Below, one piece after another: positions 4,561 through 64,000 of a stretch of DNA of 64,000 nucleotides. The DNA comes from Brienomyrus brachyistius (Eukaryota; Chordata; Actinopteri; Osteoglossiformes; Mormyridae), in contig NW_026042745.1 in NCBI RefSeq assembly GCF_023856365.1, positions 41,432 through 105,431 on the forward strand, in the 5' to 3' direction. The position numbers and the translations under genes are program-made. How positions within the stretch are numbered: the first letter of the stretch is position 1; every line of letters begins with the position of its first letter. The notes beneath the pieces were generated by a model. That model did no database searches. It saw only the letters and a program-made list of their open reading frames with translations, and was not told the origin of the DNA.

Positions 4561-4574
4561 GTATGATAGAATGA

Positions 4575-10102: not shown

Positions 10103-10164
10103 TGTGGTTTTTCATTCCCTGCTAAATCAGAAGTCAGAAGCCGCTAGTGTAGATCCAAATTCAG

Positions 10165-10245
10165 TCTTTATTGCAACAATTAAGTTACAACCAAGGCCGG
10201 ACACTTAAAGTGTGTCCAGTACTGTTTTATACCTATTTTTATACA
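10165..10245 (-). promoter_or_regulatory. LTR core: TATA boxes, R-region hairpin, polyA signal
   Basis: Order on the minus strand: TATAAAA (10245-10225, twice), a perfect 6-bp stem with a 7-nt loop (GGACAC and GTGTCC, 10217-10199), then AATAAAG (10171-10165). The spacing is what is expected for the U3/R/U5 arrangement of a retroviral LTR. Confidence 0.5.
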
Positions 10246-11109: not shown

Positions 11110-11521
11110 TATTTCCCCGCTTTGGGATTCTAAAGAGTCCCACACACAATTCTGTCCATCCAGCCTAGGAGGGAGGGCTAAAACCCTAAGATCTAGGGAA
11201 ATTCCACTCCCAGCCCGCCACAGGCGCGGCCCCCCTTTGGGGTCCATGGCTGACATGGCTCACAAACTATCAACACTCAGAATCAACCAACAGCAATGAA
11301 CTCCCCAGGATACATTGCAAATATTATCAGGAATACATAATCTACCAGGAGTACATCACCTACCACAAGCTCATTACATAAACATATACGGCTAATGCAA
11401 AGATAACTGAAAGGTTAACTGATAACACTGTAGATTACTATAACAGGCACTCTGTCATGAGCAGGAAAGTCCCAGGTGTCGTGGGCGGCAGGCAGGCTGC
11501 AGCGTTTCCAACATGGAGTAT

Positions 11522-12435: not shown

Positions 12436-13222
12436 TGACATCTGAGTCCTCTATAGGCCTGTGTGGGGGGCTGACGTCTGAGTCCTCTATAGGCCCGTGT
12501 GAGGGGCTGACGTCTGAGTCCTCTATAGGCCTGTGTGAGGGGCTGACATCTGAGTCCTTTATAGGCCTGTGCGAGGGGCTGAAGTCTGAGTCCTCTATAG
12601 GCCTGTGTGAGGGGACCGACGTCCGAGTCCTCTATAGGCCTGTGTGGGGGGCTGACGTCTGAGTCCTCTATAGGCCTGTGTGAGGGGCTGACGTCTGAGT
12701 CCTCTATAGGCCTGTGTGAGGGGCTGACGTCTGAGTCCTTTATAGGCCTGTGCGAGGGGCTGAAGTCTGAGTCCTCTATAGGCCTGTGTGAGGGGACCGA
12801 CGTCTGAGTCCCCTATAGGCCCGTGTGAGGGGCCGACGTCTGAGTCCTCTATAGGCCTGTGTGGGGGGCTGACGTCTGAGTCCTCTATAGGCCCGTGTGA
12901 GGGGCTGACGTCTGAGTCCTCTATAGGCCTGTGTGAGGGGACCGACGTCTGAGTCCCCTATAGGCCCGTGTGAGGGGCCGACGTCTGAGTCCTCTATAGG
13001 CCTGTGTGGGGGGCTGACGTCTGAGTCCTCTATAGGCCTGTGTGAGGGGCCGACATCTGAGTCCTCTATAGGCCTGTGTGGGGGGCCGGCGTCTGAGTCC
13101 TCTATAGGCCTGTGTGGGGGGCTGACGTCTGAGTCCTCTATAGGCCCGTGTGAGGGACCGACATCTGAGTCCTCTATAGGCCTGTGCGAGGGATTGACGT
13201 CTGAGTCCACTATAGGCCTGTG
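12436..13222. repeat. 36-bp minisatellite (copy A), 22 units
   Basis: Twenty-two units, most 36 bp, with core TCTGAGTCCTCTATAGGCC. Because 36 is a multiple of three, both strands stay open over long distances; on the minus strand the unit reads PIEDSDVxPxHR and runs in frame into the env remnant. A few 37-bp units (with GGGGACCGAC) shift the frame. A higher-order period is visible: the block around 12541-12620 recurs at 12723-12803. Copy B has 15 units. Confidence 0.95.
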
Positions 13223-13245
13223 TATACATCAAATATCATATATAT

Positions 13246-13390
13246 CCATCCATCCATCCATCCATTTTCCAAATCACTTATCCTACTGGGTTGCGGGGGG
13301 TCCGGAGCCTATCCCGGAAGCAATGGGCACGAGGCAGGGAACAACCCAGGATGGGGGGCCAGCCCATCGCAGGGCACATTCACACATCAT
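13246..13390 (-). repeat. 5'-truncated SINE with target duplication (copy A)
   Basis: Only the 3' part of the GGAT-tailed SINE remains, on the minus strand. It is flanked by a 17-bp direct repeat TCAAATATCATATATAT (13229-13245 and 13391-13407). The same insertion is at 60148-60285 in copy B, so it is older than the duplication. It separates the minisatellite from the CR1 element. Confidence 0.9.
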
Positions 13391-13637
13391 TCAAATATCA
13401 TATATATGATTTATTAAATTTAGATTTAAGTTTGCAGTCAATTCAATTTCCACGTTTCTCAATTTTCACGTTGCCTTTTTAAACGCAATTATGTGAATTT
13501 TAAGTAAAAATGTAGAATAAAATTGTTGTGATAATTATCAATGTCATTTCCTATGAAAAAAACTTTACTATTGTACAATATTGCCCAGCCATAGGCTGAT
13601 TTCAAAATTGATTTACATATTGTCTGTCTGTCATTAT
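13391..13637. other. AT-rich spacer, possible repeat tail
   Basis: Includes the phrase ACAATATTGCCCAGCC, which resembles the end of a common fish interspersed repeat. No coding potential. Confidence 0.35.
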
Positions 13638-13710
13638 ACATAAGAACATAAGAACTATACAAACGAGAGGAGGCCATTCGGCCCATCAAGCTCGCTTGGG
13701 GAGAACTAAA

Positions 13711-16578
13711 CTAATAGCTCAGAGTCGTTAAAATCTTATCTAGCTCTGATTTAAAGGAACCCAAGGATTCAGCTTGCACTACATTATCAGGAAGGCTATT
13801 CCATACTCTGACTACACGCTGTGTAAAGAAGTGCTTCCTTAAATCCAGCTTGAAATGTTCTCCCGCTAATTTCCACCTATGGCCACGAGTTCGTGTATTT
13901 AAACTAATGCTGAAGTAACTATTTGGTTGAACAGCATCCAAACCTGTTAGAATCTTATATACCTGGATCATGTCCCCCCTCAGTCTCCTTTGCTTGAGAC
14001 TGAACAGATTAAGCTCAAGTAACCGTTCCTCGTATGACATTCCTCTAAGACCAGGAATAATTTTTGTGGCCCTACGCTGCACCTTTTCTAAGGCCACAAT
14101 GTCCTTTTTAAGATATGGTGACCAAACCTGCACACAATATTCTAGGTGAGGTCTCACCAAGGAATTGTATAATCTTAGCATTACCTCCCTTGACTTAAAC
14201 TCCACACACCTGGAGATATACCCCAACATCCTATTGGCCTTTTTTATTGCTTCCCCACACTGGCGAGAATGGGACATGGAAGCATCAACATACACACCAA
14301 GGTCTTTCTCATGATCAGCTACCTTTATTTCAGTGACACCCATGAAATACCTGTACTTTATATTTCTGCTCCCTAGATGGAGTACCTTACATTTATCGAC
14401 GTTAAATTTCATCTGCCAGGTATCGGCCCAGTCACTAATTAAATCAAGATCCCGCTGTAGCTGCTGAGCCACTAATTCAGTATCTGCTACACCACCCACC
14501 TTGGTGTCATCTGCAAATTTCACCAGTTTACTGTATATATTGGTATCCATATCATTTATGTAAATTAGGAACAATAGTGGTCCTAAAATCGAACCCTGCG
14601 GTACCCCACTATGAACGCAAGCCCACTGTGACATTGTGCCTCTTATAACTACTCGCTGTTTCCTATCTGTTAACCAGTTATCAATCCAGGTCGCTACGGT
14701 ACCTAAAATACCTGTCGCTTTGAGTTTAAGTAGGAGCCTCTTGTGGGGGACAACATCAAAAGCCTTTTGGAAATCTAAGTAGATGACATCATAGGCCTTC
14801 TTATCATCAACTTCCTGAGTAGCTTCCTCAAAAAACTCCAACAGATTTGTTAAACAGGATCTACCTCTCCTAAATCCATGCTGGCTATCCCGCAAAATGT
14901 TATTGGAGTCCAGGTAATCTACCATTTTCTCTTTGATTATAGCCTCCATAACTTTACCAGTTATACAAGTTAGACTGATTGGCCTATAGTTAGACAAATT
15001 ACTTCTATCCCCTTTTTTGAAAATATGCGTTATGAAGGCGTGCTTCCAATCAGAAGGTACCACACCTTCAGATAAGGATTTTTGAAACAGTAAAGTTAAG
15101 GGTCGGCAAATAATATCCCTCATCTCTTTTAACACTATAGGTAAGATGCCATCAGGGCCCTGTGATTTATTTATTTTGAGCTTAGCTAGGCTTTGCAAAA
15201 CATCTGCTTCAGTTATATATATATTAGCTATAGACAATGCTGGATAGGTAATAACTGGTAAATTACTATGGTCCTCAACAGTGAATACCCGTGCAAAACT
15301 ATCATTGAACTAATTTACTATATCAATGTCGTTTACTATTATAAGACCCTTACTATCCTGCAGATTAGTAATTTCAGGTTTTAGAGCTCTTTTAGAGTTA
15401 AAATACTGGAAGAAACTTTTAACGTCATCCTTAGCTTCCAATGCAACCATCCTTTCGACATTTCTTTTAGCTCGTCTAATATAATTTTTTAACTCAGCCT
15501 GTAGACTTAGATATTCCTGCTTAATTCTGTCATCATCAGTTATTTTCCATTGCTGGAACAAAGCCCTTTTCCTCCTTACTTTATACTTTATTTCCCTAGT
15601 AAACCACCTAGGTTTCAATTTCCTAGATTTATTCTTGCTGGAAACAGGTATGAAGTCCTCTTGCACTTGCAATAATGTGCTTTTAAAAAATTCCCAGGCC
15701 TCTTCAACAGTTTTGTTATTTAACTCCATCCAGTTCACATTTTCTAGTTTTAGTCTCATACACTTAAAGTCAGCCTTCCTAACGTTATATATTTTTGATT
15801 TGGACTTAGCTCTTCGAACACTAAACTTAACCTCAAATTTGACCATGTTATGATCGCTACTGTCAAGTGGTTCTAAAATGTCTAATTTACCAATCCTGTC
15901 CTGGTTATTAGAGAGAACAAGATCAAGAATGGCATCTCCCCTGGTAGGGGTGTTAACAAACTGAGTAAAAAAACAATCCTGTACTAATTCCACCATCTCC
16001 AGTTCATTTTCTGAAGAGGCAGTGACAATGTCCCACTGCATTCCTGGTAGATTAAAATCACCCATAACTACCACATCATTTTTATTGCTCATAGTCCTAA
16101 TATCACTGTATAACAATCTGCTTTCTTCAGCAGCTATATTAGGTGTTCTGTAACAAACACAGACAATTAGGCTATTTGAGTTTTTAGCATCTAATTTTAC
16201 CCATATTGCTTCCGTAGTTTTATTTATATCAGTAAGTTCCCTTGCCTGCAAGTTTTCCTTTACATATACTGCAACACCACCTCCCTTTTTTCCTATACGA
16301 TCCTTACGGAACAACGTGTAACCATCCATATTATATTCTTGTCCATCCTTTTCACTCAACCACGTTTCAGTTATTCCTATAATATCATAAGAGTCTGATG
16401 AGATAAAAGCCTCTAAATCATGAATTTTATTCCTAATACTTCTGGCGTTTAAATACAGACAACAAAGGGTAGGCCTATTACGGTGCCCACTTACAATATG
16501 ATTATTTGGGGCTTTCCGTTTCCCCCCACTGACATAGTTAACTAACCTCCCTGCCCCCCCAGTCCCTAGTTTAAACAT
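13711..16578 (-). pseudogene. CR1 ORF2: endonuclease and reverse transcriptase, one stop (copy A)
   Basis: 955 codons from ATG 16578 to TAG 13711, with a single in-frame TAG at codon 423 (15312-15310; copy B has GAG). The apurinic endonuclease domain spans about codons 35-235 (NARSIRNK, ITETWL, GDFNLPG, SDHN). The reverse transcriptase follows from about 455 (QGPDGI, FKKGDRSNLSNYRPISL, DFQKAFD, SGVPQGS, catalytic FADD near 690), then the CR1-type C-terminal region (VWNSLPDNVV). All catalytic residues look intact. The stop separates endonuclease from polymerase. Confidence 0.92.
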
Positions 16579-17501
16579 TCCTCAACTACTCTTCACATAC
16601 GCCTCCCCAATACACTGGTTCCCCTCTGGTTCAGGTGCAACCCATCCGGCTTGAACAAGTCCCACCTGTTCCAGAAGGTCCTCCAATGCCCCATAAACCT
16701 AAACCCCTCTTTCCTACACCATCCTTTTAGCCACGCATTTAATTTCCTTATCTCAGCTAACTTAGCCTGACTTGCACGTGGCACGGGGAGTATTTCGGAG
16801 AATACCACCGTGGACGTTCTGCTTCTAAGCTTATTGGCGACTTCTATAAATTTATCCTGCAGAACAGCCCTTCTACCCTTGCCTATGTCGTTGGTGCCAA
16901 CATGCACCACGACAACTGGATCCACCCCAGCTGGGGCCAAAAGCTTATCCACACGATCTGGAAGGTCTCCTACCTGGGCACCAGGCAGGTAAGACACCGT
17001 ACGGGACCCTCTATCACGCGTGCACACATAACTGTCTACTCCCCTAATAATGGAATCCCCCACTAGCACAACCTCCCTCTTCCTGGGGGGAGGGGGCTCC
17101 TCAGTGCCCAAGGGCCCACCTGCCTCCCCAGTCCGTTCCGGCTCTAAAGCTGGAAGAACCTGAAACCTGTTCGACACAGTCACCTCAGGTGATGCCGCCT
17201 CTGCAACGTGTGTACGCCCTTTCCTGCGTTTACGACCTACGGTCACCCAGCTCTCTCAACCTCTCTGCTCTTCATTCTCCCCCCTCCCGGCTAGTGGCAT
17301 ACACACCTTCTCCCTAAAAGGCGTATTAACTTGCTCCTCTAACTCACTGTTGCATTGGATGAGAGCCGGTTGCTCCTCAAGGTCGCGAACCTTGACCATG
17401 AGCGAGTCCACTAGCTTACATCGCTCGCAGATGAAGTCCGACTGGACACTAACGTCCAGAAGGGCAAACATGTTGCAAACGCAACACTGAGCCGGCCCCA
17501 T
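16566..17501 (-). pseudogene. CR1 ORF1: zinc-finger plus SGNH esterase, two stops (copy A)
   Basis: ORF1 of the LINE, 311 codons if read through two stops: TGA at 17258-17256 (codon 82) and TGA at 16595-16593 (codon 303, where copy B has TGT). The N-terminus has a CxxC...CxxC finger (CCVCNMF, FICERCK). The middle and C-terminus form an SGNH/GDSL esterase: block I GDSIIRG (about codon 148), block III VGTNDIG (about 202) and the Asp-His block DGLHLNQ (about 285). Esterase ORF1s are typical of CR1. It ends TTA-AAC-TAG, overlapping the ORF2 start by 13 nt. Confidence 0.85.
16569..16578 (-). promoter_or_regulatory. ORF1/ORF2 overlap with slippery heptamer (copy A)
   Basis: The sequence ATGTTTAAACTAG (16578-16566) holds the ORF2 start codon, the heptamer T-TTA-AAC in the ORF1 frame, and the ORF1 stop TAG immediately after it. 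ORF2 is in the -1 frame. The same bases occur in copy B at 63483-63471. This could serve -1 frameshifting or stop-start reinitiation. Confidence 0.5.
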
Positions 17502-41980: not shown

Positions 41981-42753
41981 CGCTAGTAAGACCGGACAAG
42001 TAGGTCATGACAACTTTACCGAACCAGACTTGATCTGAGTGTTTCGTAGCAATTACACGAACAAGTGTTAAGACAAAATCCATTTATTTAAAATTAACTT
42101 TTAGATAATAACAATAATTGATACTTTCACTGATCCCTTTGGGGAAATTGTTTTAGATAGAAAGGGGAAATTCTTTTAAATTAGCCTGACCTGTATCTCC
42201 GCCCTTCCTGTAGCAGCTGAGACTGTATCATGGCCTCTGTGTTCATCCATCGTACAGAGATAACAGATACACTGCTGGTGGGTACGGCAGTAAACCTCCA
42301 GCGGTTTGTCATGGTGGGAACAGACCTTGTCCTTCAGATGGCCGATGGCATCAATGAGCTTGTGCTGTTTTGCATGGTGGAGTTTGTTGTGAAGCTGCAG
42401 GTCAGTTTCACAGTAGGAGGCCAGACACACCAGGCAGGACTTGACAGCTTTGTGTTTTCTCCCAGTACAGACGTCACACTCCACATCTCCAGGTTCAGCA
42501 TACTGGTCAGCAGGAGCAGCTGCTTGTAGTCCAGTCTTCTTCAGTTTCTCCACCACTTCAGCCAGCATGGTGTTTCTGCCCAGAACAGGTCTGGGTATGA
42601 AGGTCTGTCTGCACTGGGGGCAGCTGTAAACTCCAGCATGATCTTCCTGATCCCAGCAGCTCTTAATGCAGCTCATACAGTAACTATGTCCACAGGGAAT
42701 AGTTACTGGATCCTTTAGTAGATCTAGACAGATTGCACAACTTAACTCATTTA

Positions 42754-44367
<1,614 letters not shown>

Positions 44368-47456: not shown

Positions 47457-47500
47457 TCACGAGTGCGCTTCCCTAACCATTAAGTCACCACTGCTCACTA
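47457..47500 (-). repeat. tRNA-like SINE head at the left edge of copy B
   Basis: Minus strand GTGAGCAGTGGTGACTTAAT then GGTTAGGGAAG is a box-A-like SINE head. It marks the left limit of similarity visible between the two copies. Confidence 0.45.
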
Positions 47501-48134
47501 CTATGTGTACTATTAAAAGAGGCAGTAGGGTCTTGTCCAGCCAGCTGACAAAACGTTTCCACATTTAATTGGAACGAAGGACGGTAGGAAACATCTGTAT
47601 TGTGTGCAGACTTCCAATAAAACCATGTTGAAGCAAAGTCCGACCTCTACTGTGGTCCAGCACTCTGACAACCATAGAACTAGGAGTGAAGCCTGTTCTT
47701 CTGTGCTGGAGAGCTTTGGGGAGCATGTTTTGGCGAACAGGGGGATCACAGTAAATCCCAGAGAAGCATCATCGTCAGACTTCAAGTGACAATGAGGACG
47801 CAGGTCGCCCTACGGCAAACGACATGGAGACGGCGGGCTCCTTTTCTCCAGAGCACCCCACCTCTGCGGGGTTCAGCACACTCACTCCATTCCAGAGGGC
47901 CCTGAGGATCTCCGCTATAGCTGCCACACCCTCCACTTGGGAGTCCGGGGAGAGGGCTATGCCATCTGTCAGAGATGGGCCATTCTCTCTGGGCAAAGAT
48001 GTACTGCGGCCTGAACCAGCGACATTAGGTATGCTTGACACAAGCAGCAGTGATCGGCTGTAGGGACCTGGGGAATCTACTGGGGCTTGTCGAGTTCCGT
48101 CAGTCTGTTGGGTGCCAGGATGAACGACTCTGGG

Positions 48135-48381
48135 AGCAGGTGTTGTCAGACAATAAACTGGGATTTACTGGGATCAAGATGGGAGGCTAGGGAACGAGCA
48201 ACATGGAGGGCACCACATCAATGGGGAACACAGGGCCAGGAAGCACTTATACAGGAATAACAAGGGAACAGACTGGAGGTAGCAGGGAGTGTTTAACATG
48301 AGGGATGGAACGAGACGCGAGACCAACGAGCAGCAGGCATGGCTTATTAGAGCCACGTCAGGGAGGTGGCAGGACATGACG
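48135..48381. repeat. Dispersed repeat, family R1 (copy B)
   Basis: Counterpart of 682-928 with only a few substitutions. Confidence 0.6.
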
Positions 48382-48732
48382 TTTGGGGCTATGGTTAGGG
48401 TTAGGATTAGGCTTAGGTTTAGAGTAAAGTGTTTGTGGCAGAGAGCGGTCAGTAGTACAAGGACATGACTATGCCACCTGGGGAATTTCACCACAGGAAA
48501 AATTACTCTAAATTAAGAGCACACAAGTTCATTTACCGAATGGAGCTAGAGACGTGTTTGTACTATTAACAGGTTGTTGAAAATATAAAACAAAAAAACA
48601 AGACAAGCGCTTTAGCATCAACAACCTTAAAAAATAAACCAGCAACCAGCCTTTGGCCACTGGCTGACTAAACTCAAGCAGGAGACAGGTGTCCGGGGAA
48701 GTTGATCAAAAGGGGGAATAGAGTCCCTTAAA

Positions 48733-48748
48733 CTAACACACACACACA

Positions 48749-48781
<33 letters not shown>

Positions 48782-48784
48782 GCA
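48733..48784 (+). repeat. CA microsatellite (copy B)
   Basis: About 30 bp shorter than the array in copy A (1281-1363), with one TA interruption in place of the GA ones. Confidence 0.95.
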
Positions 48785-50070
48785 CCTGTGCTCCACCACA
48801 CTGATCCCCACACAAATATACTGCACAAGGTGAAAGTGTGAACACCACCACCCCAGACCAATCAAATCTTAGTCAGCCAGATCAATCGAGGCAGCCACTG
48901 CTCACAGTCTCCCAGAAAATACCCCAATCTAACCAAGAATCTGAGTGTTGAAAACTATGAAGAGTGCAAACAATGAGTAGCAGAATACAGGCTGTCCCTC
49001 TGTATCAGTCCCAAACAGAAAGAAAGGGCGGCCCAAAGTCTGTTAAGTCACAAAACTAGGGAATGAAACAGCTCCAAATGCAGGAAAAGGTGCGACGATC
49101 CTTAGCGCGTTCCAGGGCTCCCAGCACATCGCCGATGTCCCACCGAGGATCAGGAGCTTCAAGCCGCGGTTGTTGGGCGACATCGGACCGGCTGAGGACA
49201 AGACAAGACTGACGGAAAAGAAAAACTGACGTAGGAAACACAGCAGCCACAGTGCAGGTTCAAACTATTATTGTCTGACAAACCTGCTGGAAGAGGCATA
49301 AACTGAAGCTGACGAGCAACTGAAACTGTAATCCTGGCAACAACCGTAACTACAATTAAAACACATCAAGTAAAGCAACTGACAAGTAGCTATAGGCCTA
49401 GTCACCAGAATAACTTGCAACCACTGGAGCTGCAACACAGACACAAGAGAAACACTGCAATATAAAATATTACCATTAGCCATTTAAATCAAGCAGAGGA
49501 TTAACGCTAATTAAAACAGCAAAACCTCCCACCAAGACACAGAATAAGTGTGAACCTCAGCCAGCATGCCAGCGTACCACGGCAGACCACTGCGGTGCGG
49601 AAGGGGAGTTACCGGACCGGGAAACGCCAATGACGCCTCCACACACTAGGGGTCCCCACACACACTTACCGGAAATAATCAACAAGTCCTACCCGCAAAA
49701 TTCCACACTACTACAGTTGGATGGCCCTGGGATTTTTCTCCAGAACCCCAAGGCTCAATGGAAGTACCGTGAGATTCTTAAACCCTTACCTGAGGAAGGA
49801 GGCTTCCAGCGTAAGGAGAGGTTCACCAGAATCCCCGGGCTGGATGGACATCGTTCATCCTTTACCTGGGGAATGAGGCTACCAACTCGTGGTGACTTAC
49901 CCAAGCCCTGGTGCTGGATCATCATTCAATGCTTACATGGGGAAAGAGAGACCTTACCCTTGGCCTCCAAGCCTGGAAGTACCCTGAGCTCTAGACCCAA
50001 GCTTAACCCTAACCCATAAGCATAGGTTCGCAGTATGAACGGTTCTCACCTGATACCAGAAAACCATACA

Positions 50071-50400
50071 TGTTCTTAATCTGAAAATCAGTTCATCGTT
50101 TTCCCAGAAGGTGGCAGCACATCAACACTGCAAGCTTGGCACATCCCTTTGGATACAATGAGCTATCCTTACATTTTGAAATTTTTTTAAACTTATTTAA
50201 ATCAGTAAAACAAATTACTTCCAAAAAGGATAGAATCATGTCTACCCAATACCCCTTGGCACCATGTTAGTGTGAATGGAGTTTTCACTCCAGCCCTGAG
50301 GGATTCAGAGCAGACACAAAAGATTGTGAACCCATGTGTGATTTACAGTGAAAGGTGACTGAACACAACGCACAGCCTCTGTTATGACTCCACTGTTCAC
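50071..50400. repeat. Dispersed repeat, family R2 (copy B)
   Basis: Counterpart of 2651-2990. Confidence 0.6.
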
Positions 50401-51632
50401 CATGGTTCAGCACCATCTATATTTCTATTATTTTTAAGGTATTTTACTTGTGGTTTTACACTTAACATGGTATCGACAGGCTTGCACCAGAGATCTCATT
50501 GTATTTACAGTGACAGTAACGCTGCCTTATCTTGCGAGAGGAAGTAGCATATGGGTGCGCTGCTAATGTTAGCATTAGCAAACCTAGCTGCCTAGCAGTG
50601 TTGGTAGTAACTCGTCAGTGTAATTCCACTACTTTTGTTTGCACCATGTATTTCAACATCGACGCGATGTTAATGTGATCACTATGCAACCTTTAGCCCA
50701 CTGTTATTTTCCTTGATTATGTAATTATACTGGGCAGGTCAGGCAGAGGGAGCAGACGCAGATGTAGAACATTGCCGCACCAACCACACGTCCAAACTGC
50801 TGGCGATCCTGGCCGGCGACCCCCCAGGCAGACACACGGTCGAATCCCACCCTTATTATAATTACTTTTATATACAGTAATTGGTAATTAGTAATTTTCA
50901 GTAGCTTGCACAAGGCTGCTGACTAGCAACGTTATTCGTTGGCTGAATCCGAAATAGCTGTAGTGCTACGATGCTGGATTGTTACAGGGACAGTGATAAA
51001 TGCAGACCCCTTTATTCTGATTGCGTTAAAAATCAAATGTTTTTACTCAGATTTCATCCATTTGGTGGTGTGCTCTCTATAATGTGCCATGTTTTCCTAA
51101 AAGCAGATTTTTTAAAAAGAATGGCAAAATAGAGCAGCGCACTGAATTGTAATGCCTGTATCTTGAAACGTAGCGTGTTGTCAGACTCTCCGACACACAG
51201 CTCTATGGTCCATACAGAGGAGATGAGGAACATGCAGTCTGCTAAGTCACGTGGTTACCTTTCGTTAGGTGGCTACGTTTACATGCCTTAACGCAATTAA
51301 GATGTTTTCATGTAAACAGATTAATCGGGGAGCTCATTTATAAAGGCTTCGTGTGACTGAAAAAGACGAGAAGCATTCATACATACATTTATAGGAAGAT
51401 TTTGGGATTTACAAAGAAAAACGTTTTGTGAAAAAGACACAAATCTTGTGAACGAGGTTGAGAGATGCTGTTTCGACAGAATCCTGTAGAGGGCACTGTG
51501 TATGCTAAATCGAAGGCTCCAGGAATGTATTCGGCATTTATAATCATAAACAATAATAAATGAAATATTTGTGGGCAAATGGCAATTGGCTCTGAGATTA
51601 AAGTTTTTTAAAATGAATTTGTTTAAATTTTT

Positions 51633-51980
51633 GGGCCGGCATGGTGGTGCAGTGGTTAGCACTGTTGCCTCACACCTCTGGGACCCAGGTTCGAGTCTCC
51701 GCCTGGGTTACATGTGTGTGGAGTTTGCATGTTCTCCCCATGTCGTCGTGGGGTTTCCTCCGGGTACGCCGGTTTCCCCCCACAGTCCAAAAACATGCTG
51801 AGGCTAATTGGAGTTGCTAAAAAATTGCCTGTAGGTGTGAATGGTGTGTGAGTGTGCCCTGCGATGGGCTGGCCCCCCCATCCTGGGTTGTTCCCTGCCT
51901 TGTGCCCATTGCTTCCGGGATAGGCTCCGGACCCCCCGCGACCCAGTAGGATTAGCAGTTTGGAAAATGGATGGATAGAT
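51633..51980 (+). repeat. tRNA-derived SINE, near full length (copy B)
   Basis: Counterpart of 4213-4560, with box A, box B and the GGAT tail kept. Confidence 0.85.
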
Positions 51981-52509
51981 GTATGATAGAATGATTAAGC
52001 TGTAGCACATTTCAAATAATATTTCATTTGTAACACATTTGTTCTCCAAACTTCTACATTTTTAACCTTTGGCCACAAGATCATCTTCTTCCTGCCAGTA
52101 TCTTTTCTTTTCCTTTGATCCTCGGTTGTTGGAATCTGCTCTGCTGCTTGGAAGTTCCCTGGGGAGTTAGTGTTGGGGGGTTCTGGTGGAATGTGACCAT
52201 CGGCAGCCATGGGCTGGATAGCGCTGTGGTGCTCAGCCTGGCTCTGTGCCCTTCTAGGGGCTCTGTGTCCTTTGTTAGCACAAACATTTTGCACACCTGA
52301 CATTACCATGCATACAGTATTTCTCTTATTTTACAAAATACAAAAACACTGATCAAAGTCTGTAGAAAAAAACATTTTATTTCATGAACTAAGTCAAATA
52401 TGAATCATAAAACACAATTAAAATACTTTTTTTGAATACATGCCTCAGAAATTGCACATCCCTGATTGTGCGTTACCTTCATGCTGCCTTGAAATTTTTG
52501 ATTTCTTCA

Positions 52510-53350
52510 CTGTAGCCCTATGTTATACAATCTTATCTTAACCTTATGTTAACTGATCCCATTTTTATTTCTTAAAATATCCCCTCCACCACCCCCCTCT
52601 GAGGAGGACTGCTTTATTTATAATTAATCTAATCCTATGTTATACAATCTTATCTTAACCTTCTGAATTAATCCTATTTTTATTTCTTAAATATTCCCTC
52701 CACCACCCCCCCTCTAAGGAGGACTGTTTTATTTACAATTAATCTAATCCTATGTTATATAATCTTATCTTAACCTTATCTTAATTAATCCTATTTTTAT
52801 TTCTTAAATATTCCCTCCACCACCCCCCCTCTAAGGAGGACTGCTTTATTTATAATTAATCTAATCCTATGTTATACAATCTTATCTTAACCTTATGTTA
52901 ACTAACCCTATTTTTATTTCTTAAATATTCCCTCCACCACCCCCCCTCTAAGGAGGACTGCTTTATTTATAATTAATCTAATCCTATGTTATACAATCTT
53001 ATCTTAACCTTATGTTAACTAACCCTATTTTTATTTCTTAAATATTCCCTCCACCACCCCCCCTCTAAGGAGGACTGCTTTATTTACAATTAATCTAATC
53101 CTATGTTATACAATCTTATCTTTACCTTATGTTAACTGATACTATTTTTATTTCTTAAATATTCCCTCCACCACCCCCCCTCTAAGGAGGACTGCTTTAT
53201 TTATAATTAATCTAATCCTATGTTATACAATCTTATCTTAACCTTATGTTAACTAACCCTATTTTTATTTTTTAAATATTCCCTCCACCACCCCCCCTCT
53301 AAGGAGGACTGCTTTATTTATAATTAATCTAATCCTATGTTATACAATCT
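52510..53350. repeat. 117-bp satellite array (copy B)
   Basis: About seven units, one more than in copy A. One unit is shortened (CTTCTGAATTAATCC near 52670). The C-rich part mostly has the CTCTAAGGAGG variant. Confidence 0.95.
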
Positions 53351-53689
53351 TAAGCTTACCGTAACCTATCCTATCTTAATTTTATTCTATGTTATCTTAT
53401 CCTATCTTTCTTATCTTATGCTATGCAATCCTATCTTATTCTTATACTATGTTACCTTATATAATCTTATCCTAAACTTATGGTAATTTATCATGTCTTT
53501 GTAAAACATAAAATGGCATACAAGTTAAGACTATCTTAACTTGTCCTATCTTATTCTATACAATCTTAACCTTATCCTATCTTAATCTTATCCTATAGTA
53601 CCTTATGCTATAGAACTACATGGTAACATATCCTAATTTTATCTTATCCTAAGTATGTATGACAACTCTCGTGTAATTATGTGCTGAAT

Positions 53690-55795
53690 CTACAGGGAAA
53701 TGTAGCTATGTGCATCTGACTGATAGCCCATTTCCACACCCATCTCCTGAGCCCTGGGCATGGTACTTAGCTGCTCCAGTGCATCAATAGGAAAGATGAA
53801 CTCATCTTCATCAATCCTACGCCTCTTGGTTGAATGAGTACCCTCATTATCCTCATTCTTCCCCTGTTTCGCTAAGTTAATTTCATTTAAATGTCTGTTC
53901 CAAAACTCCTGACACCAGTACTCAGTAAAGCACTTGGCGTCATAGGTCATTTTAGAGTACTTGGTTACATAATAGTTATACAACCAATAGAATTTTTCCA
54001 GGTGAGATGAGGCGGCTACAGCCTTTGCTGGAGCCTGAAGCAGAGGGGTCAGATGAACCAGGCCTGGAGCTGAATATGGATGTGGAGCTGGGCTTACAGG
54101 TGTGACTAAGTGTGGCAATAAAACAGAGGAGCCCATAAAAAGAAATGGGGATGAAACAAAAGGGGAGGGGGCTGAAGACGGAAATAAAAATGAAGAGGAG
54201 GAGAAGGTTGGTGAGCTGGGCTTAGGCTCTAACCCCTTCTGTTGGTCATACCTCCTTCTTCGCCCTGACCGGCCTCCCGCCGTTTTTCTACGGCGGCCTG
54301 TGCCCTGCTGACCCCTGCTGGTTGCCACCGGGATGGCAGCAGATCCAGGAGAGGCAGACGTGGTCAGGGAGCTGGCTGCCGGCGGCCTGGTGCGGCACTT
54401 CTTCCGACGGCCAGCATCACTGGAACTGGTTTGTCCTTTGGGATTATAAAGACAGGGGACAGCATATTTAATTTAAATGAAACATTATGTCACTGTACAA
54501 CAACACTACATCACAACCATCACAGATATCACACTTGGCAGTCGGTATTGCACACTAAGAAAAATTCTGCAGTCTTTATTGGATACAGGAAACAAACGCT
54601 TGGGAAACTTATGCGCTGGTCTTGACTTGGGCCGTCTGCGTTTCAGCAGGGGAACCTGACCTATAAAAACAAGCCAGTTTGTGCACAGATTCCCTGATAC
54701 GCAGAACAACAGCGAAAAACAACACTGGAAAGGTTCATGTGCATCAAATATAGCAGCCCACTCAATCCAAATGCTGGCATCAACAACTGACTAAAGTCAA
54801 ATCCTTTACATATCTTACACTTTCCATAAGTTGCATTATTTATTCACTCTCAAGGTACCAAACTAAGATTTATTCTTTTTCTGATTACTACCGCGTTTCC
54901 CCGCAAATAAGCCCTAACATGATTTTTCAAGAAGCCCGTAATATAAGCCCTAGTTATTGTCCCATGGATTGTACGGTAACTAGAATGAGATGCGGTTATA
55001 CTACGAGAAGGCTACATGGACAAGAGGCGCTCATTTAAGGACAGAGTTATTGCTAAACATGAGAGATTGGGGACACTGGTTCTACAGGAAATTGAGTTGC
55101 GAGATATTCAGGACGGAATTTGGAACTTGGAGATTTACGATGATGTTCCAGAAGAACATGACATGACGACTATATTTGAATGAACATATACAGTATACAG
55201 CAGAATTTTGTTCATGAATAAATTCACCGTCAAATTGTTTACATGGAAAGATACTGTTAGAAGATGACATGATGTCTGTGTTTGAATAAATGTGGATTCT
55301 TTTTCATGAATACCGGTAAATATACTGTAGCATGTTATACTTGGGAAAATACTACCTTAATATAAGCCGTAACGCGTCATTTGGAGCAAAAATTTATATA
55401 AGACCCTGTCTTATTTTCGGGGAAACACCGTATATTAGGACATATTCAGCTGTTACTTTACCACTTCATGATGATTTTCTCTGATGTTTAAATATAATAT
55501 AATGCAGTAGACATTTAAAAAGACTCCCGTATATTAAAGCTAAAGGTGAACTACTTTATTATTTAGACATGTACTTCTAAAACAAGATAATAGAACAGAA
55601 GATTCAAGAAGACTAGTCAAGCATATTCTGACTTTAACTCTTTAAGTGCTGAGTTAGTCTGGGCATCATTTTGCCATCCTTACCTCGGCCAACTGGACCG
55701 GGGATGTATTCCGGGGCGATCCGCACACTGACTGCACCTTTCGGCAGCAGCCAGTCAATCCTCTGGAGATTCACGGTGGTTTTCACGATGGACAT
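53690..55795 (-). CDS. Unrecognised three-exon protein (copy B)
   Basis: Same structure as 6136-8241: exons 55795-55684, 54660-54598 and 54435-53690, all open. Protein differences I can see against copy A are N19K and S28P in exon 1, and N to K (RRRNT/RRRKT), F to Y (HPF/HPY) and Q to K (PAQ/PAK) in exon 3, against three synonymous changes in exon 3. The donor after exon 2 changes from GTGTCT in A to GTTTGT in B, still a GT. The high share of replacement changes gives no sign of strong constraint on one copy, but the numbers are small. Confidence 0.5.
54891..55430. mobile_element. pogo/Tigger-like non-autonomous DNA transposon (copy B)
   Basis: Counterpart of 7339-7873 with the same terminal inverted repeats and flanking TA, with several small indels inside. 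It was inserted before the segment was copied. Confidence 0.7.
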
Positions 55796-57371
55796 CTTTC
55801 GCGTCTTCTCTCTTGCTGATAAACTGCAAGTCTGAGCTGCTTTAAATGTTCAAATGAAAACTCTAAACGGAAAAGAATTGTTATGATTCGGTTGCTAAGC
55901 TACGGTGGCCGATTGGTGTCAGAGCGCTGCAAAGTCTTCAAACGCTTTAATCAAATGACGAAACATACGATCTACATTTACAAAAGCGCAGAAACGTAGA
56001 AGTACCACAAAATTTTAAGACAAGTTTAAAAACATATAAGCGCTGAAAATCTGCTCACAACACAGTTGTGAAGTTTCTGGGTGACAAAGAAACAAGACGG
56101 ACCAATTATGGTTTAACTGTATATCGAATGTTTACAAAATGTCGATATCTTATCAAAACAGGATATAGAATGAAACACTACATTATATCAATCAATCATC
56201 CGGTCGCCATTAAAAATATAGAATAATATTCCTTCCTTGTTATAAGTAACACGAGAGCTGCGGTCTTGAAGTTGCACAGGCTCCCAGAATTCATAGCGAT
56301 AATTACGCGACCCATTCAATTAGTGGGTTTTTTGATAATTGGGAATGCGTTGGGTGCGTTCGACTTCACTTAGGTCTGACTGCAGCTGACGTGAGGGGGA
56401 GCGCCATCTGCCGGCGGCTGCAGGAGTGTAATATAATAATATAAACTGTAATATAAACTTGTAATATAAACTGACAGCAGCCAAACTAGACAACTTCTAC
56501 TCCTCGTAGTGCGAGACCTGACTGAGATGGCCGCACTGCCAGAAGGGTGTAGATACATCTATACAAATATCACCTGCATGCACATTACTTCTTCTACAAT
56601 AACCAACTCCTGATCCAAACTGCTAGCAGTGAAAAGATAGCTGCCAGGAAAAAGATCAAATACATTTATTTCAAGGATTCAAAGTTTTTATTGTCATGCA
56701 CAGAATACAATGCAATTCTTACTTGAATGTCTTCTTCACAGACTAGACGATTAAACACATAAAGCAGCGCAAGATTACAGTAACTAACAATAAATAAACG
56801 ATTAACTTATGTGTACTATTAGAGCATTTATTGAAACTTTACTTCTTTACAGGCTTTTCGGGAGAAATAGCAGATAACGCATCGGAACTTCCAGAGATAC
56901 AAACGTCATGCTAAAATTGTTCAGCCAATAAGGGCAAAGTTGTGTCACGGAGGCAGTTCCAGTTTGTGCAGCCGGCTGAGAGGTTTTTTTTTATTATTTT
57001 TGTTATTGAAGCTTTAAATTACAACAGAAGTAACAGCTGACCAGTGACCATTAAGATTAACAAAACAAACAAGAACATTTACGAGACATTCACAAAATAA
57101 GCCAGGGGCACATAGTAGCGACATTTACAGTTACGCCGGCTGAAAAGTGCTGCACGATCTTACTTGCTCTCTGCACGTGCTGCACGATCTGTCACGATCG
57201 TCTTGTAGGTTTTTGTACCATGTGACTTGGTGACGTTAGGTGACGTTTTGCAGGGCCGGCTTTATGTCGGACAAAAGAAATCTAACCATGATGCAGCAAA
57301 GCAGACTAACCAAAGATCTCATAGTAAACAAAGGAATGTGATACTGCACTTAAGTCTCAAAACAAAGCTTT

Positions 57372-57634
57372 TACAATGTTAAAAAGTACTCACAACTTTC
57401 AGAATTTGATTGAGTACAAAAAGTTGCAGGCTAACGTAAGGAGGGTAGTTAAATGAGCAAAGAGGGAGTTTTGGAGGTCCTTCTGTAATTCAGTAGGACG
57501 GGAAACTGACATTAGTAAAGTCTGGGGAATGATAAAAAAGATGCATGAGATTAAAAGGGAGTATGGATATTCAGTTCTAAATGATAATAACATAATAACA
57601 GTTACAGATGGGGAAAAAGGCAAAATGTTAGTTT
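57372..57634 (+). mobile_element. LINE ORF2 fragment (copy B)
   Basis: Counterpart of 9840-10102, ending at the LTR edge. Confidence 0.5.
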
Positions 57635-58373
57635 TGTGGTTTTTCATTCCCTGCTAAATCAGAAGTCAGAAGCCGCTGGTGTAGATCCAAATTCAGTCTT
57701 TATTGCAAACAAGTTACAACCAAGGCCGGACACTTAAAGTGTGTCCAGTACTGTTTTATACCTATTTTTATACAAGTTCTTATCATTTAACAATATCTCG
57801 TCACTTAAGCATCATCATTCCTTCAACCATTCACAATCATTGTTTTTTACATCAATCCACACCCCTAGGTGATAAGTTTGTCCATCAATTCTTTTACTGT
57901 TTGGTCCCTCAGCCGAACGTAATGGTGGTGCGACCATCTCCACTTGGTTTCTTAAAAATGCTCAGCCGTGAACTTTTGGTGAGCCTGTTGCACATTGTCT
58001 AATTAGAGGGTTGATAATATATTTGTCCTTCAACATAATGATAAGGCATAACACTAATAAAGGTGGATATTCATGCATTCAGGGCTAACATAAAGTAGCT
58101 AACAGAACATTTGAGGCTAATACAAGGTGCAAATACATACTCAATTGATTACATTGTGTTGATTACATTGTAATGATTACATCACGGGTATTTGGCATGC
58201 TTTTTAATAATACCGTAATGATTATATTCTACATTGTATAGTGCTAAATAATATCCCATATATTTCCCCCCTTTGGGATTCTAAAGAGTCCCACACACAA
58301 TTCTGTCCATCCAGCCTAGGAGGGAGGGCTAAAACCCTAAGATCTAGGGAAATTCCACTCCCAGCCCGCCACA
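57635..58373 (-). repeat. Retroviral LTR (copy B), without SINE
   Basis: Uninterrupted version of the LTR, TGTGG at 58373 to CCACA at 57635 on the minus strand, 739 bp. TATA-like boxes and AATAAAG are kept. About 45 bp present in copy A (near 10459-10503) are missing. Confidence 0.6.
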
Positions 58374-58672
58374 GGCGCGGCCCCCCTTCGGGGTCCATGG
58401 CTGACATGGCTCACAAACTATCAACACTCAGAATCAACCAACAGCAATGAACTCCCCAGGATACATTGCATATATTATCAGGAATACATAATCTACCAGG
58501 AGTACATCACCTACCACAAGCTCATTACATAAACATATACGGCTAATGCAAAGATAACTGAAAGGTTAACTGATAACACTGTAGATTACTATAACAGGCA
58601 CTCTGTCATGAGCAGGAAAGTCCCAGGTGTCGTGGGCGGCAGGCAGGCTGCAGCGTTTCCAACATGGAGTAT

Positions 58673-59586
58673 TCACAGGCGGTACGGCCGAACTTCAGCT
58701 ATGGGCAGGAGCGTATCCAAGGTGTCTATGTCGCCATCCGTTTCCGTGTTGGTCCAGGAGGTTGCCGCTCCAAACGGTCCTCCCACCACTCTAAACATTG
58801 CAGCTATAGTCGCCTGCTGAGACAGCGCTCTTCCCACTAGGGAGCGAACAAGAGGAACTACACAACAAAAGATTAGTATCAAAGCAAGAATGAACACAGC
58901 ACACACACAGAGTGCTTTCATAAGGGCTTACTGCCAACTACCCCACATATTATAGCACCAGTCAAACAACCCGTCATGTTGTCCCGAATTTCTCGCCATC
59001 TCATCCTGTAACCCCTGCAACTTTCTCATACCCTCAGTAAATGAAACATCCAGGGTTGTATTATTGGGAATAAATGTACAGCACTGATCCCCGAACAGCA
59101 CACACACTCCCCCTTTTTCTGCCAGGAGCCAATCCAGGGCCATCCTGTTCTGTCATGCCATCAGACTGGTGGCCTGAAGCTGCTCCCCCAGAGATGCGAG
59201 TGCCGCCTGAGTATAGTTGATAAACCTCTGCTGATTATAGTACAGATAATTTTTCCATTCCACATTTTTGTTAACAGTAGGCCAAATTAATATTGATTCA
59301 AACCCTGCAGCTATCTCACTTCTCACCTTATATTTCTCTGGAATGCCCCTCGGCTGGCATATGGCATCTATATACACACTGGGATCATCTTCGCAGCTCG
59401 TAACAAACCTGTGGGACCTAGAGGGCTGTTTGTCAGAGTAAATATCCACCTGGCTAGCTAACATCCCCCTAGTGCAGAGGCCTCCACAATTATTGGGGAG
59501 AGGAGGCCTCAATCCTCCCTCCTGACCACACAGCCACCACGTATCTGCCAGAGGTACGCTCTGGTTCTCTAATGCATCCAGCGGAA
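58673..59586 (-). pseudogene. Endogenous retrovirus env pseudogene (copy B)
   Basis: Same arrangement as 11522-12435: transmembrane-subunit pieces in one frame with stops at 59155-59153 and 58930-58928, the CX6CC motif and the membrane anchor kept. A few amino acid replacements distinguish it. The shared stops show inactivation before duplication. Confidence 0.8.
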
Positions 59587-60118
59587 TGACATCTGAGTCC
59601 TCTATAGCCCTGTGTGAGGGGCTGACGTCTGAGTCCTCTATAGGCCTGTGTGAGGGGCTGACGTCTGAGTCCTCTATAGGCCTGTGTGAGGGGCTGAAGT
59701 CTGAGTCCTCTATAGGCCCGTGTGAGGGGCTGACGTCTGAGTCCTTTATAGGCCTGTGCGAGGGGCTGAAGTCTGAGTCCTCTATAGGCCTGTGTGAGGG
59801 GACCGACGTCTGAGTCCCCTATAGGCCCGTGTGAGGGGCCGACATCTGAGTCCTCTATAGGCCTGTGTGGGGGGCTGACGTCTGAGTCCTCTATAGGCCC
59901 GTGTGTGGGACCGACATCTGAGTCCTCTATAGGCCTGTGTGAGAGGCCGACATCTGAGTCCTCTATAGGCCTGTGTGGGGGGCCGACGTCTGAGTCCTCT
60001 ATAGGCCTGTGTGGGGGGCTGACGTCTGAGTCCTCTATAGGCCCGTGTGTGGGACCGACATCTGAGTCCTCTATAGGCCTGTGCGAGGGATTGACGCCTG
60101 AGTCCTCTATAGGCCTGT
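59587..60118. repeat. 36-bp minisatellite (copy B), 15 units
   Basis: Fifteen units of the same repeat as 12436-13222, including one 37-bp frame-shifting unit near 59800. Confidence 0.95.
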
Positions 60119-60147
60119 GTATGCATCAAATATCATATATATATATA

Positions 60148-60285
60148 TCCATCCATCCATTTTCCAAACCGCTTATCCTACTGGGTTGCGGGGGGTCCGG
60201 AGCCTATCCCGGAAGCAATGGGCACGAGGCAGGGAACAACCCAGGATGGGGGGCCAGCCCATCGCAGGGCACATTCACACATCAT
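60148..60285 (-). repeat. 5'-truncated SINE with target duplication (copy B)
   Basis: Counterpart of 13246-13390; the flanking TCAAATATCATATATAT is present on both sides. Confidence 0.9.
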
Positions 60286-60615
60286 TCAAATATCATATAT
60301 ATAATTTATTAAATTTAGATTTAAGTTTGCAGTCAATTCAATTTCCACGTTTCTCAATTTTCACGTTGCCTTTTTAAACGCAATTATGTGAATTTTAAGT
60401 AAAAATGTAGAATAAAATTATATCGTGATAATTATCAATATCATTTTCTATGAAAAAAACTTTACTATTGTACAATATTGCCCAGCCATAGGCTGATTTC
60501 AAAATTGATTTACATATTGTCTGTCTGTCATTATACATAAGAACATAAGAACATAAGAACTATACAAATGAGAGGAGGCCATTCGGCCCATCAAGCTCGC
60601 TTGGGGAGAACTAAA

Positions 60616-63483
60616 CTAATAGCTTAGAGTTGTTAAAATCTTATCTAGCTCTGATTTAAAGGAACCCAAGGATTCAGCTTGCACTACATTATCAGGAAGG
60701 CTATTCCATACTCTGACTACACGCTGTGTAAAGAAGTGCTTCCTTAAATCCAGCTTGAAATGTTCTCCCGCTAATTTCTACCTATGGCCACGAGTTCGTG
60801 TATTTAAACTAATGCTGAAGTAACTATTTGGTTGAACAGCATCCAAACCTGTTAGAATCTTATATACCTGGATCATGTCCCCCCTCAGTCTCCTTTGCTT
60901 GAGACTGAACAGATTTAGCTCAAGTAACCGTTCCTCGTATGACATTCCTCTAAGACCAGGAATCATTTTTGTGGCCCTACGCTGCACCTTTTCTAAGGCC
61001 ACAATGTCCTTTTTAAGATATGGTGACCAAACCTGCACACAATATTCTAGGTGAGGTCTCACCAAGGAATTGTATAATCTTAGCATTACCTCCCTTGACT
61101 TAAACTCCACACACCTGGAGATATACCCCAACATCCTATTGGCCTTTTTTATTGCTTCCCCACACTGGCGAGAATGGGACATGGAAGCATCAACATACAC
61201 ACCAAGGTCTTTCTCATGATCAGCTACCTTTATTTCAGTGACACCCATGAAATACCTGTACTTTACATTTCTGCTCCCTAGATGGAGTACCTTACATTTA
61301 TCGACGTTAAATTTCATCTGCCAGGTATCGGCCCAGTCACTAATTAAATCAAGATCCCGCTGTAGCTGCTGAGCCACTAATTCAGTATCTGCTACACCAC
61401 CCACCTTGGTGTCATCTGCAAATTTCACCAGTTTACTGTATATATTGGTATCCATATCATTTATGTAAATTAGGAATAATAGTGGTCCTAAAATCGAACC
61501 CTGCGGTACCCCACTATGAACGCAAGCCCACTGTGACATTGTGCCTCTTATAACTACTCGCTGTTTCCTATCTGTTAACCAGTTATCAATCCAGGTCGCT
61601 ACGGTACCTAAAATACCTGTCGCTTTGAGTTTAAGTAGGAGCCTCTTGTGGGGGACAACATCAAAAGTCTTTTGGAAATCTAAGTAGATGACATCATAGG
61701 CCTTCTTATCATCAACTTCCTGAGTAGCTTCCTCAAAAAACTCCAACAGATTTGTTAAACAGGATCTACCTCTCCTAAATCCATGCTGGCTATCCCGCAA
61801 AATGTTATTGGAGTCCAGGTAATCTACCATTTTCTCTTTGATTATAGCCTCCATAACTTTACCAGTTATACAAGTTAGACTGATTGGCCTATAGTTATAC
61901 AAATTACTTCTATCCCCTTTTTTGAAAATAGGCGTTATGAAGGCGTGCTTCCAATCAGAAGGTACCACACCTTCAGATAAGGATTTTCGAAACAGTAAAG
62001 TTAAGGGTCAGCAAATAATATCCCTCATCTCTTTTAACACTATAGGTAAGATGCCATCAGGGCCCTGTGATTTATTTATTTTGAGCTTAGCTAGGCTTTG
62101 CAAAACATCTGCTTCAGTTATATATATATTAGCTATAGACAATGCTGGATAGGTAATAACTGGTAAATTACTAAGGTCCTCAACAGTGAATACCCGTGCA
62201 AAACTATCATTGAACTCATTTACTATATCAATGTCGTTTACTATTATAAGACCCTTACTATCCTGCAGATTAGTAATTTCAGGTTTTAGAGCTCTTTTAG
62301 AGTTAAAATACTGGAAGAAACTTTTAACGTCATCCTTAGCTTCCAATGCAACCATCCTTTCGACATTTCTTTTAGCTCGTCTAATATCATTTTTTAACTC
62401 AGCCTGTAGACTTAGATATTCCTGCTTAATTCTGTCATCATCAGTTATTTTCCATTGCTGGAACAAAGCCCTTTTCCTCCTTACTTTATACTTTATTTCC
62501 CTAGTAAACCACCTAGGTTTCAATTTCCTAGATTTATTCTTGCTGGAAACAGGTATGAAGTCCTCTTGCACTTGCAATAATGTGCTTTTAAAAAATTCCC
62601 AGGCCTCTTCAACAGTTTTGTTATTTAACTCCATCCAGTTCACAGTTTCTAGTTTTAGTCTCATACACTTAAAGTCAGCCTTCCTAACATTATATATTTT
62701 TGATTTGGACTTAGCTCTTCGAACACTAAACTTAACCTCAAATTTGACCATGTTATGATCGCTACTGTCAAGTGGTTCTAAAACGTCTAATTTACCAATC
62801 CTGTCCTGGTTATTAGAGAGAACAAGATCAAGAATGGCATCTCCCCTGGTAGGGGTGTTAACAAACTGAGTAAAAAAACAATCCTGTACTAATTCCACCA
62901 TCTCCAGTTCATTTTCTGAAGAGCCAGTGACAATGTCCCACTGCATTCCTGGTAGATTAAAATCACCCATAACTACCACATCATTTTTATTGCTCATAGT
63001 CCTAATATCACTGTATAACAATCTGCTTTCCTCAGCAGCTATATTAGGTGTTCTGTAACAAACACCGACAATTAGGCTATTTGAGTTTTTAGCATCTAAT
63101 TTTACCCATATTGCTTCCGTAGTTTTATTTATATCAGTAAGTTCCCTTGCCTGCAAGTTTTCCTTTACATATACTGCAACACCACCTCCCTTTTTTCCTA
63201 TACGATCCTTACGGAACAACGTGTAACCATCCATATTATATTCTTGTCCATCCTTTTCACTCAACCACGTTTCAGTTATTCCTATAATATCATAAGAGTC
63301 CGATGAGATAAAAGCCTCTAAATCATGAATTTTATTCCTAATACTTCTGGCGTTTAAATACAGACAACAAAGGGTAGGCCTATTACGGTGCCCACTTACA
63401 ATATGATTATTTGGGGCTTTCCGTTTCCCCCCACTGACATAGTTAACTAACCTCCCTGCCCCCCCAGTCCCTAGTTTAAACAT
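60616..63483 (-). pseudogene. CR1 ORF2 (copy B), two stops
   Basis: 955 codons from ATG 63483 to TAG 60616. Codon 423, a stop in copy A, is GAG here. Private stops are TGA at codon 492 (62010-62008; CGA in copy A, a CpG-type change) and TAG at codon 902 (60780-60778; TGG in copy A). Endonuclease and reverse transcriptase motifs, including FADD, are kept. No frameshift. Confidence 0.92.
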
Positions 63484-64000
63484 TCCTCAACTACTCTACA
63501 CATACGCCTCCCCAATACACTGGTTCCCCTCTGGTTCAGGTGCAACCCATCCGGCTTGAACAAGTCCCACCTGTTCCAGAAGGTCCTCCAATGCCCCATA
63601 AACCTAAACCCCTCTTTCCTACACCATCCTTTTAGCCACGCATTTAATTTCCTTATCTCAGCTAACTTAGCCTGACTTGCACGTGGCATGGGGAGTATTT
63701 CGGAGAATACCACCGTGGACGTTCTGCTTCTAAGCTTATTGGCGACTTCTATAAATTTATCCTGCAGAACAGCCCTTCTACCCTTGCCTATGTCGTTGGT
63801 GCCAACATGCACCACGACAACTGGATCCACCCCAGCTGGGGCCAAAAGCTTATCCACACGATCTGGAAGGTCTCCTACCTGGGCCCCAGGCAGGCAAGAC
63901 ACCGTACGGGACCCTCTATCACACGTGCACACATAACTGTCTACTCCCCTAATAATGGAATCCCCCACTACCACAACCTCCCTCTTCCTGGGGGGAGGGG
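63471..64000 (-). CDS. CR1 ORF1 esterase, partial (copy B)
   Basis: The visible 3' part of ORF1 is open from the window edge to TAG 63473-63471. It has GDSIIRG, VGTNDIG and DGLHLNQ esterase blocks and ends RVVEECLN. Copy A has a TGA nine codons before this end. The N-terminal finger lies beyond 64000. Confidence 0.85.
   Translation of the reverse strand, partial: PPPRKREVVVVGDSIIRGVDSYVCTCDRGSRTVSCLPGAQVGDLPDRVDKLLAPAGVDPVVVVHVGTNDIGKGRRAVLQDKFIEVANKLRSRTSTVVFSEILPMPRASQAKLAEIRKLNAWLKGWCRKEGFRFMGHWRTFWNRWDLFKPDGLHLNQRGTSVLGRRMCRVVEECLN
63474..63483 (-). promoter_or_regulatory. ORF1/ORF2 overlap with slippery heptamer (copy B)
   Basis: ATG of ORF2 at 63483-63481, heptamer TTTAAAC at 63480-63474 read as T-TTA-AAC in the ORF1 frame, and the ORF1 stop TAG at 63473-63471. 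A G-rich stretch (CTGGGGGGGCAGGGAGG) begins a few bases downstream. Confidence 0.5.

Follow-up and report, generated by a model that had tools for sequence, protein, structure and literature searches.

A candidate -1 frameshift site at the ORF1 stop codon of esterase-type CR1 LINEs of vertebrates

INTRODUCTION

How is the second protein of a LINE made from an RNA whose first open reading frame (ORF1) closes with a stop codon? The answer is known for few LINEs: the parts of PMC5972666 covered here describe reinitiation in SART1 and an unconventional route proposed for LINE-1. For Drosophila non-LTR elements, the covered parts of PMC5009743 discuss frameshifting in the expression of HeT-A gag and a shifted start codon in TART. 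The same question is raised by a CR1-like LINE at the end of a 64,000-nucleotide stretch of DNA from the mormyrid fish Brienomyrus brachyistius, which we call the window. There, an initial annotation saw ORF1 end in a slippery heptamer and a stop codon, with ORF2 in the -1 frame and its ATG overlapping the site, and read this arrangement as a possible programmed -1 frameshift or, alternatively, as a site of reinitiation. We examined the junction in the window, in the host genome, and in ORF1 homologues of other species.

RESULTS

The window ends in an esterase-type CR1-like element that was duplicated after insertion

The minus strand at the window end lies within a CR1-like LINE that is of the esterase type by its ORF1 and ORF2 domains (Table 1). 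ORF1 matches the esterase domain PF13472 (E = 1.4e-13) and the ORF1-encoded protein 4c1b (E = 9.4e-27), which is its sole solved sequence relative at E <= 0.001; ORF2 combines PF03372 (APE-like endonuclease) with PF00078 (reverse transcriptase). The best protein match of ORF1 is P0001 from the mormyrid Paramormyrops kingsleyae, with 94-96% identity. The same composition, an esterase ORF1 followed by an APE-RT ORF2, characterizes CR1 subgroup 7 with its type IV ORF1, a subgroup described as exclusively vertebrate (Metcalfe and Casane 2014, PMC4120745). In the main text of that paper the words "frameshift" and "overlap" have 0 occurrences, and ORF2 translation is absent from the parts covered.

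Table 1. Features of the two CR1 copies in the window
Feature	Positions	Strand	Basis
C-terminal portion of CR1 ORF1 (GDSL/SGNH esterase), whose 5' end lies beyond the window	63471..63998	-	Domain match; solved relative 4c1b
CR1 ORF2, copy 2, endonuclease and reverse transcriptase; nonsense codons 492 and 902	60694..63483	-	Translation
ORF2 ATG overlapping the ORF1 end, possible reinitiation start	63481..63483	-	Sequence
Candidate slippery heptamer T TTA AAC (ORF1 0 frame; -1 reading TTT AAA C)	63474..63480	-	Sequence; Leu-Asn kept in relatives
ORF1 stop codon TAG, directly 3' of the heptamer	63471..63473	-	Sequence
G-rich tract GGGACTGGGGGGGCAGGGAGG, directly 3' of the stop codon	63450..63470	-	Sequence
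Heptamer, copy 1 (TAG 16566-16568, ATG 16576-16578)	16569..16575	-	Duplicate of copy 2 site
CR1 ORF2, copy 1; nonsense codon 423	13711..16578	-	Translation

Positions 1-17095 and 47457-64000 of the window form one segmental duplication with 96-98% identity. Because this duplication continues through the CR1 3' flank, the two CR1 copies represent one insertion, and we rejected their agreement as a sign of selection. Across 161 bases around the junction, the copies differ once: copy 1 carries an in-frame TGA nine codons ahead of the usual ORF1 TAG, and its ORF1 (ORF 16593-17246) ends in ...RRM. Thus, the annotated ending of heptamer plus TAG "in both copies" holds for copy 2, whereas in copy 1, which carries the identical ten bases TTTAAACTAG at 16566-16575 of the minus strand, ORF1 has already been closed by the TGA. 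With this early TGA and with nonsense codons in both ORF2s, neither window copy is a working element.

The junction has the layout of a frameshift site

In copy 2, ORF1 ends in ...GAA TGT TTA AAC TAG and ORF2 opens with ATG TTT AAA CTA GGG, giving a protein that begins MFKLGTGGAG. An X XXY YYZ heptamer thus sits in the zero frame of ORF1 with ORF2 in exactly the -1 frame, which is the layout of a frameshift site. The annotation was correct on this phase and on the ATG overlapping the site (63471-63483, minus strand), as it was on the G-rich tract just downstream, which follows the TAG. The next Met of the copy 2 ORF2 after the junction ATG is codon 84.

The heptamer string is not significant by itself because its frequency is at chance level: 0.29 occurrences of TTTAAACTAG are expected per window, and TTTAAAC is found 26 times within it. 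In the host genome (a 985-Mb assembly), TTTAAACTAG occurs 1633+1613 times, fewer than the 2725+2729 occurrences of the reversed string, and bare occurrence was rejected as evidence. What counts is that the heptamer is in phase, sits at the stop codon, and recurs in relatives. A second TTTAAAC lies inside ORF2 (63352-63358, minus strand), in the codons TAT TTA AAC of an LYLNARS motif; it is also present in a divergent host copy, L104, and is probably a coincidence of that motif.

Many ORF1 homologues from fish to turtles end in Leu-Asn-stop

Two protein searches yielded 159 ORF1 homologues: 79 from one, then 80 more among the best 120 of 740 matches. A readable tail is missing from 22 of these, of which 15 lack the DGLHL motif, 2 are cut just after it, and 5 continue for >60 residues (including the fused P0226 discussed below). 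Leu-Asn-stop (LN) is the exact ending of 82 of the 137 homologues whose tail can be read. They come from 18 named species of fish, frog, and turtle, in Paramormyrops, Synaphobranchus, Acipenser (a record flagged UNVERIFIED_CONTAM by NCBI), Latimeria, Xenopus, Leptobrachium, Hyla, Pelodiscus, Chrysemys, Gopherus, Hypanus, Hemitrygon, Mobula, Pristis, Leucoraja, Narcine, Scyliorhinus, and Stegostoma.

The 55 homologues without this ending fall into 46 from other esterase lineages, 6 that end or change frame earlier (P0002, P0008, P0011, P0245, P0269, and P0273, the last of which stops just before LN), and 3 near misses: P0219 ends in IN, P0271 in SN, and P0225 in LK, an ending compatible with U UUA AAA. 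On the tree, LN lineages hold 91 rows: the 82 LN enders, the near misses, and the broken-off or frame-changed rows. In a maximum-likelihood tree with 136 rows, 11 changes suffice to explain the LN label, whereas shuffled labels need 42.9 on average; removal of seven long branches leaves 10 changes. LN rows do not cluster in a single part of this tree, and a distant group with a VRYLN end is among them. Each of the seven columns preceding LN changes 22-27 times; the absence of change in LN itself among the LN-ending rows follows from the choice of rows.

A distant ORF1 group (P0259-P0263, P0265, P0267-P0271, and P0273-P0279) contributes 18 tree rows, 15 of them with an RYLN end. Proteins of this group have a long N-terminal part ahead of the esterase, and P0270 has SH3 matches there.

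Several observations point to constraint on the nucleotides

The residue preceding LN in the 82 rows is Y (30), G (13), C (8), T (7), H (6), S (6), F (6), D (2), L (2), or A (2). All ten kinds can be encoded by NNT, and K, E, Q, M, and W are never present over 24 changes. Among the 41 columns with at least 20 changes, this is the only one without K, E, Q, M, and W; the columns were counted from the C-terminus, as the MAFFT alignment misplaces the pre-LN residue in the VRYLN rows (there the figure is 2 of 43), and the count is no formal probability because the rows are related. An NNT-only residue would follow from a fixed T at heptamer position 1.

Three fused models give a reading in the other frame. 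The ray protein P0093 (Hypanus) is 95% identical over 195 amino acids to P0033, also from this species and ending in GGGLN, but reads GG-FKLDVQGAG; P0226 (Hypanus) is 89% identical over 251 amino acids to P0205 (Hemitrygon), which also ends in GGGLN, but reads EG-FKLNLQGAG; and the ibis gene model P0080 reads QG-FKLDLKGEG. The pattern FKLxxxGxG is common to the mormyrid, the rays, and the ibis, and the next Met after FK lies 18, 43, and 93 residues downstream in P0226, P0093, and P0080, respectively. LN in frame 0 combined with FK in frame -1 fits only TTTAAAC or TTTAAAT. The fused models are gene predictions and may contain real indels beside the heptamer. We infer that the DNA under Leu-Asn in relatives from other species would be TTTAAAC; conservation of the heptamer was read at the protein level from the LN tails and the FK of the three fused models, and as DNA in the host genome alone.

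The overlapping ATG behaves differently. It needs a Cys before LN, which 8 of the 82 LN-ending relatives have, so that at most these 8 could carry it. Since LN is conserved, Cys is rare, and FK appears in the fused models, the heptamer seems to persist in relatives that lack the overlapping ATG. This is the opposite, at the protein level, of the pattern that the annotation had named as refuting a frameshift, a freely varying heptamer with a conserved ATG.

Host copies keep both the heptamer and the ATG

All 50 loci picked in the host genome by ORF1 proteins (L052-L101) contain TTTAAACTAG, and 49 have the ATG. These loci represent 44 distinct places and 43 distinct sequences, the window's own included, and the queries contain the LN end. 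The exception, L084, has an open ORF1 and ATT instead of ATG; this copy is possibly dead. With the 11 central bases left open, a pattern matched 471 places, versus 6 for the control. Among the 100 places listed, 8 deviate: 4 in the heptamer (TTTCAAC, TTTGAAC, TTTAAAG, and TTTAAAT), 3 in the ATG, and 1 in the stop codon. Because the anchors are exact in all 100, most of the old copies are missing from this set. A pattern blind to the heptamer recovered two copies, L104 and L105, and both keep TTTAAACTAG; L104 is 79% identical to P0001 over 155 amino acids and has an upstream deletion that shifts the phase of the heptamer relative to ORF1. Across 57 host loci, the endonuclease motif is in the -1 frame in 52 and in another frame in 2, with no motif in 3; L024 and L025 have a common ORF2-frame stop between heptamer and endonuclease.

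The ATG is lost but the heptamer kept at three places in the host genome. The two that were compared, L084 and L102, are 76-88% identical and belong to different subfamilies; they do not reveal a spreading ATG-less source. The host CR1 family looks young and abundant, and conservation within it was rejected as evidence because it reflects identity by descent. With ATG and heptamer both nearly fixed, the comparison within the host genome does not discriminate between frameshifting and reinitiation.

Two host copies, L106 and L107, both carry TTTAAAT-TAG and an upstream GTTAAGG, and perhaps form a small subfamily whose heptamer is the related U UUA AAU. ORF1 has 1403 candidate places in the host genome, and contigs C35, C67, and C395 carry repeated runs; all 150 that were scored cover the whole query at >=98% identity.

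Downstream RNA folds no better than shuffled sequence

A stimulatory structure downstream, whose prediction the annotation had suggested as a check, did not emerge from nested folds or from a crude pseudoknot scan, both of which were no better than shuffles. For 52, 82, and 122 downstream bases, nested folding gave energies worse than those of shuffles (z of +1.20, +1.26, and +1.67), the best candidate in the crude H-type pseudoknot scan was equalled by 3 of 30 shuffles, and folding found no stable hairpin in the G-rich tract, which could perhaps adopt a G-quadruplex. An Rfam scan of positions 63200-63700 produced no family above its gathering score; the sole match, GP_knot1, scored 17.9 bits where its gathering score is 67.7, and was taken as chance.

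Viral contigs held no relative: 19 sites matched a pattern, and tblastn showed none of them to be related. Genome contigs gave four distant esterases, in bacterial records, and plasmids and phages gave no match. CR1 DNA of other species was not found in the viral contigs, genome contigs, plasmids, and phages searched.

DISCUSSION

The layout at the ORF1 end is real and, judged by the sequences of its relatives, more than chance. In our reading, which concerns the esterase-type (ORF1 type IV) CR1 LINEs of vertebrates, the majority of ribosomes would end ORF1 at the stop codon directly after U UUA AAC. A minority would slip back by one base on the heptamer, the Leu codon UUA being exchanged for UUU and the Asn codon AAC for AAA, and these ribosomes would bypass the stop and continue in the -1 frame. 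The product would be an ORF1-ORF2 fusion that carries the endonuclease and reverse transcriptase, in the manner of gag-pol. We regard expression of ORF2 as such a fusion, with U UUA AAC as the -1 frameshift site, as the best explanation of the data and a likely one; slippage itself in these CR1 elements is what we infer from the arrangement. The programmed frameshift of the annotation has thus become the leading hypothesis by virtue of the LN-stop in relatives, although it is not proven and its structural part is unsupported. With slightly less confidence, we favor an ancestral origin, in which reverse transcriptase fusion by -1 frameshifting at the ORF1-stop U UUA AAC would be common to esterase-type CR1 elements of jawed vertebrates, from sharks to turtles.

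In coronaviruses, the frame downstream of the frameshift site encodes the polymerase. The heptamer and phase of the coronavirus IBV site are identical to those of the CR1 junction, and U_UUA_AAC is listed as one of the heptamers on which mammalian ribosomes are most prone to shift (PMC5009743, parts covered). Unlike in coronaviruses, the CR1 site belongs to a cellular LINE, the stop directly follows the heptamer, and the crude scan found no pseudoknot. HeT-A is, like CR1 in our proposal, a non-LTR element for which a frameshift has been discussed; it differs in being without a reverse transcriptase of its own, and its shift therefore makes no Gag-RT fusion.

For the mormyrid family, the main rival is termination-reinitiation as in SART1: ribosomes would stop at the TAG, the small subunit would back up by about ten bases and restart at the ATG, and ORF2 would be made as a separate protein. 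SART1, a silkworm LINE, is bicistronic with an overlapping start and stop as in the window copy, where the overlap is ATGTTTAAACTAG (UAAUG in SART1), and provides a precedent for coupled termination-reinitiation, of which the LINE-1 route is an unconventional proposed form (PMC5972666, parts covered). The ATG begins ten bases ahead of the stop codon, is nearly fixed in the host family, and is followed by no other ORF2 Met until codon 84, all of which speaks for reinitiation there. The overlap noted in the annotation thus fits the host family, but among the relatives it mostly fails: at least 74 of the 82 LN enders cannot have a SART1-type start at this position, yet LN-stop is kept. Moreover, Cys and Trp are both missing from the last 16 residues in 67 of the 82, which therefore have no ORF2-frame ATG in those codons, and even in the host genome L084, possibly dead, has an open ORF1 with ATT. 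We consider reinitiation unlikely as the general explanation.

Marginally less probable still is that Leu-Asn is a feature of the ORF1 protein, that ORF2 is begun at a downstream AUG or otherwise, and that TTTAAAC is a by-product. The bulk of our evidence is indeed protein-level conservation, as this explanation would have it. It leaves unexplained, however, why the variable residue before LN is always NNT compatible, why FK appears in the other frame of three models, and why the heptamer of the host family is perfect and in phase with ORF2. The heptamer region could also be an RNA signal with a different role, such as RNP assembly or reverse transcriptase binding. Any RNA function can constrain nucleotides, and the GxG residues encoded just downstream recur too; against this stands the location of the heptamer exactly at the ORF1 stop, in the sole phase that joins ORF1 to ORF2, and we give such a signal very little credence.

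The frameshifting mechanism is known; what is new, within the literature searched, is its proposed use in a vertebrate LINE lineage. That literature, in the parts covered, contained no report of CR1 frameshifting; Kapitonov and Jurka 2003 and Kojima 2005 lay outside the search, and these and other classic CR1 papers (Haas 1997, Kajikawa 1997) may have noted the site already. If the frameshift is kept across jawed vertebrates, it would be added to the strategies of LINEs. If our reading is true, it predicts a fusion protein with the esterase ahead of the reverse transcriptase, and slippage would set the ratio of ORF1 to ORF2.

Other features of the window

The halves of the segmental duplication lie about 47 kb apart. 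Apart from a CR1 copy, they hold internal repeats, whose offsets are about 117 and about 72 bases, and a 212-amino-acid ORF on the minus strand (6136-6774 and 53690-54328), which was without a match in a Pfam scan of the copy at 6136-6774. The window also contains a RING plus B-box (TRIM-like) fragment at 42176-42835 on the minus strand and, at 43044-44123 on the plus strand, an open frame of 359 amino acids for a Tc1/Sleeping Beauty-type transposase.
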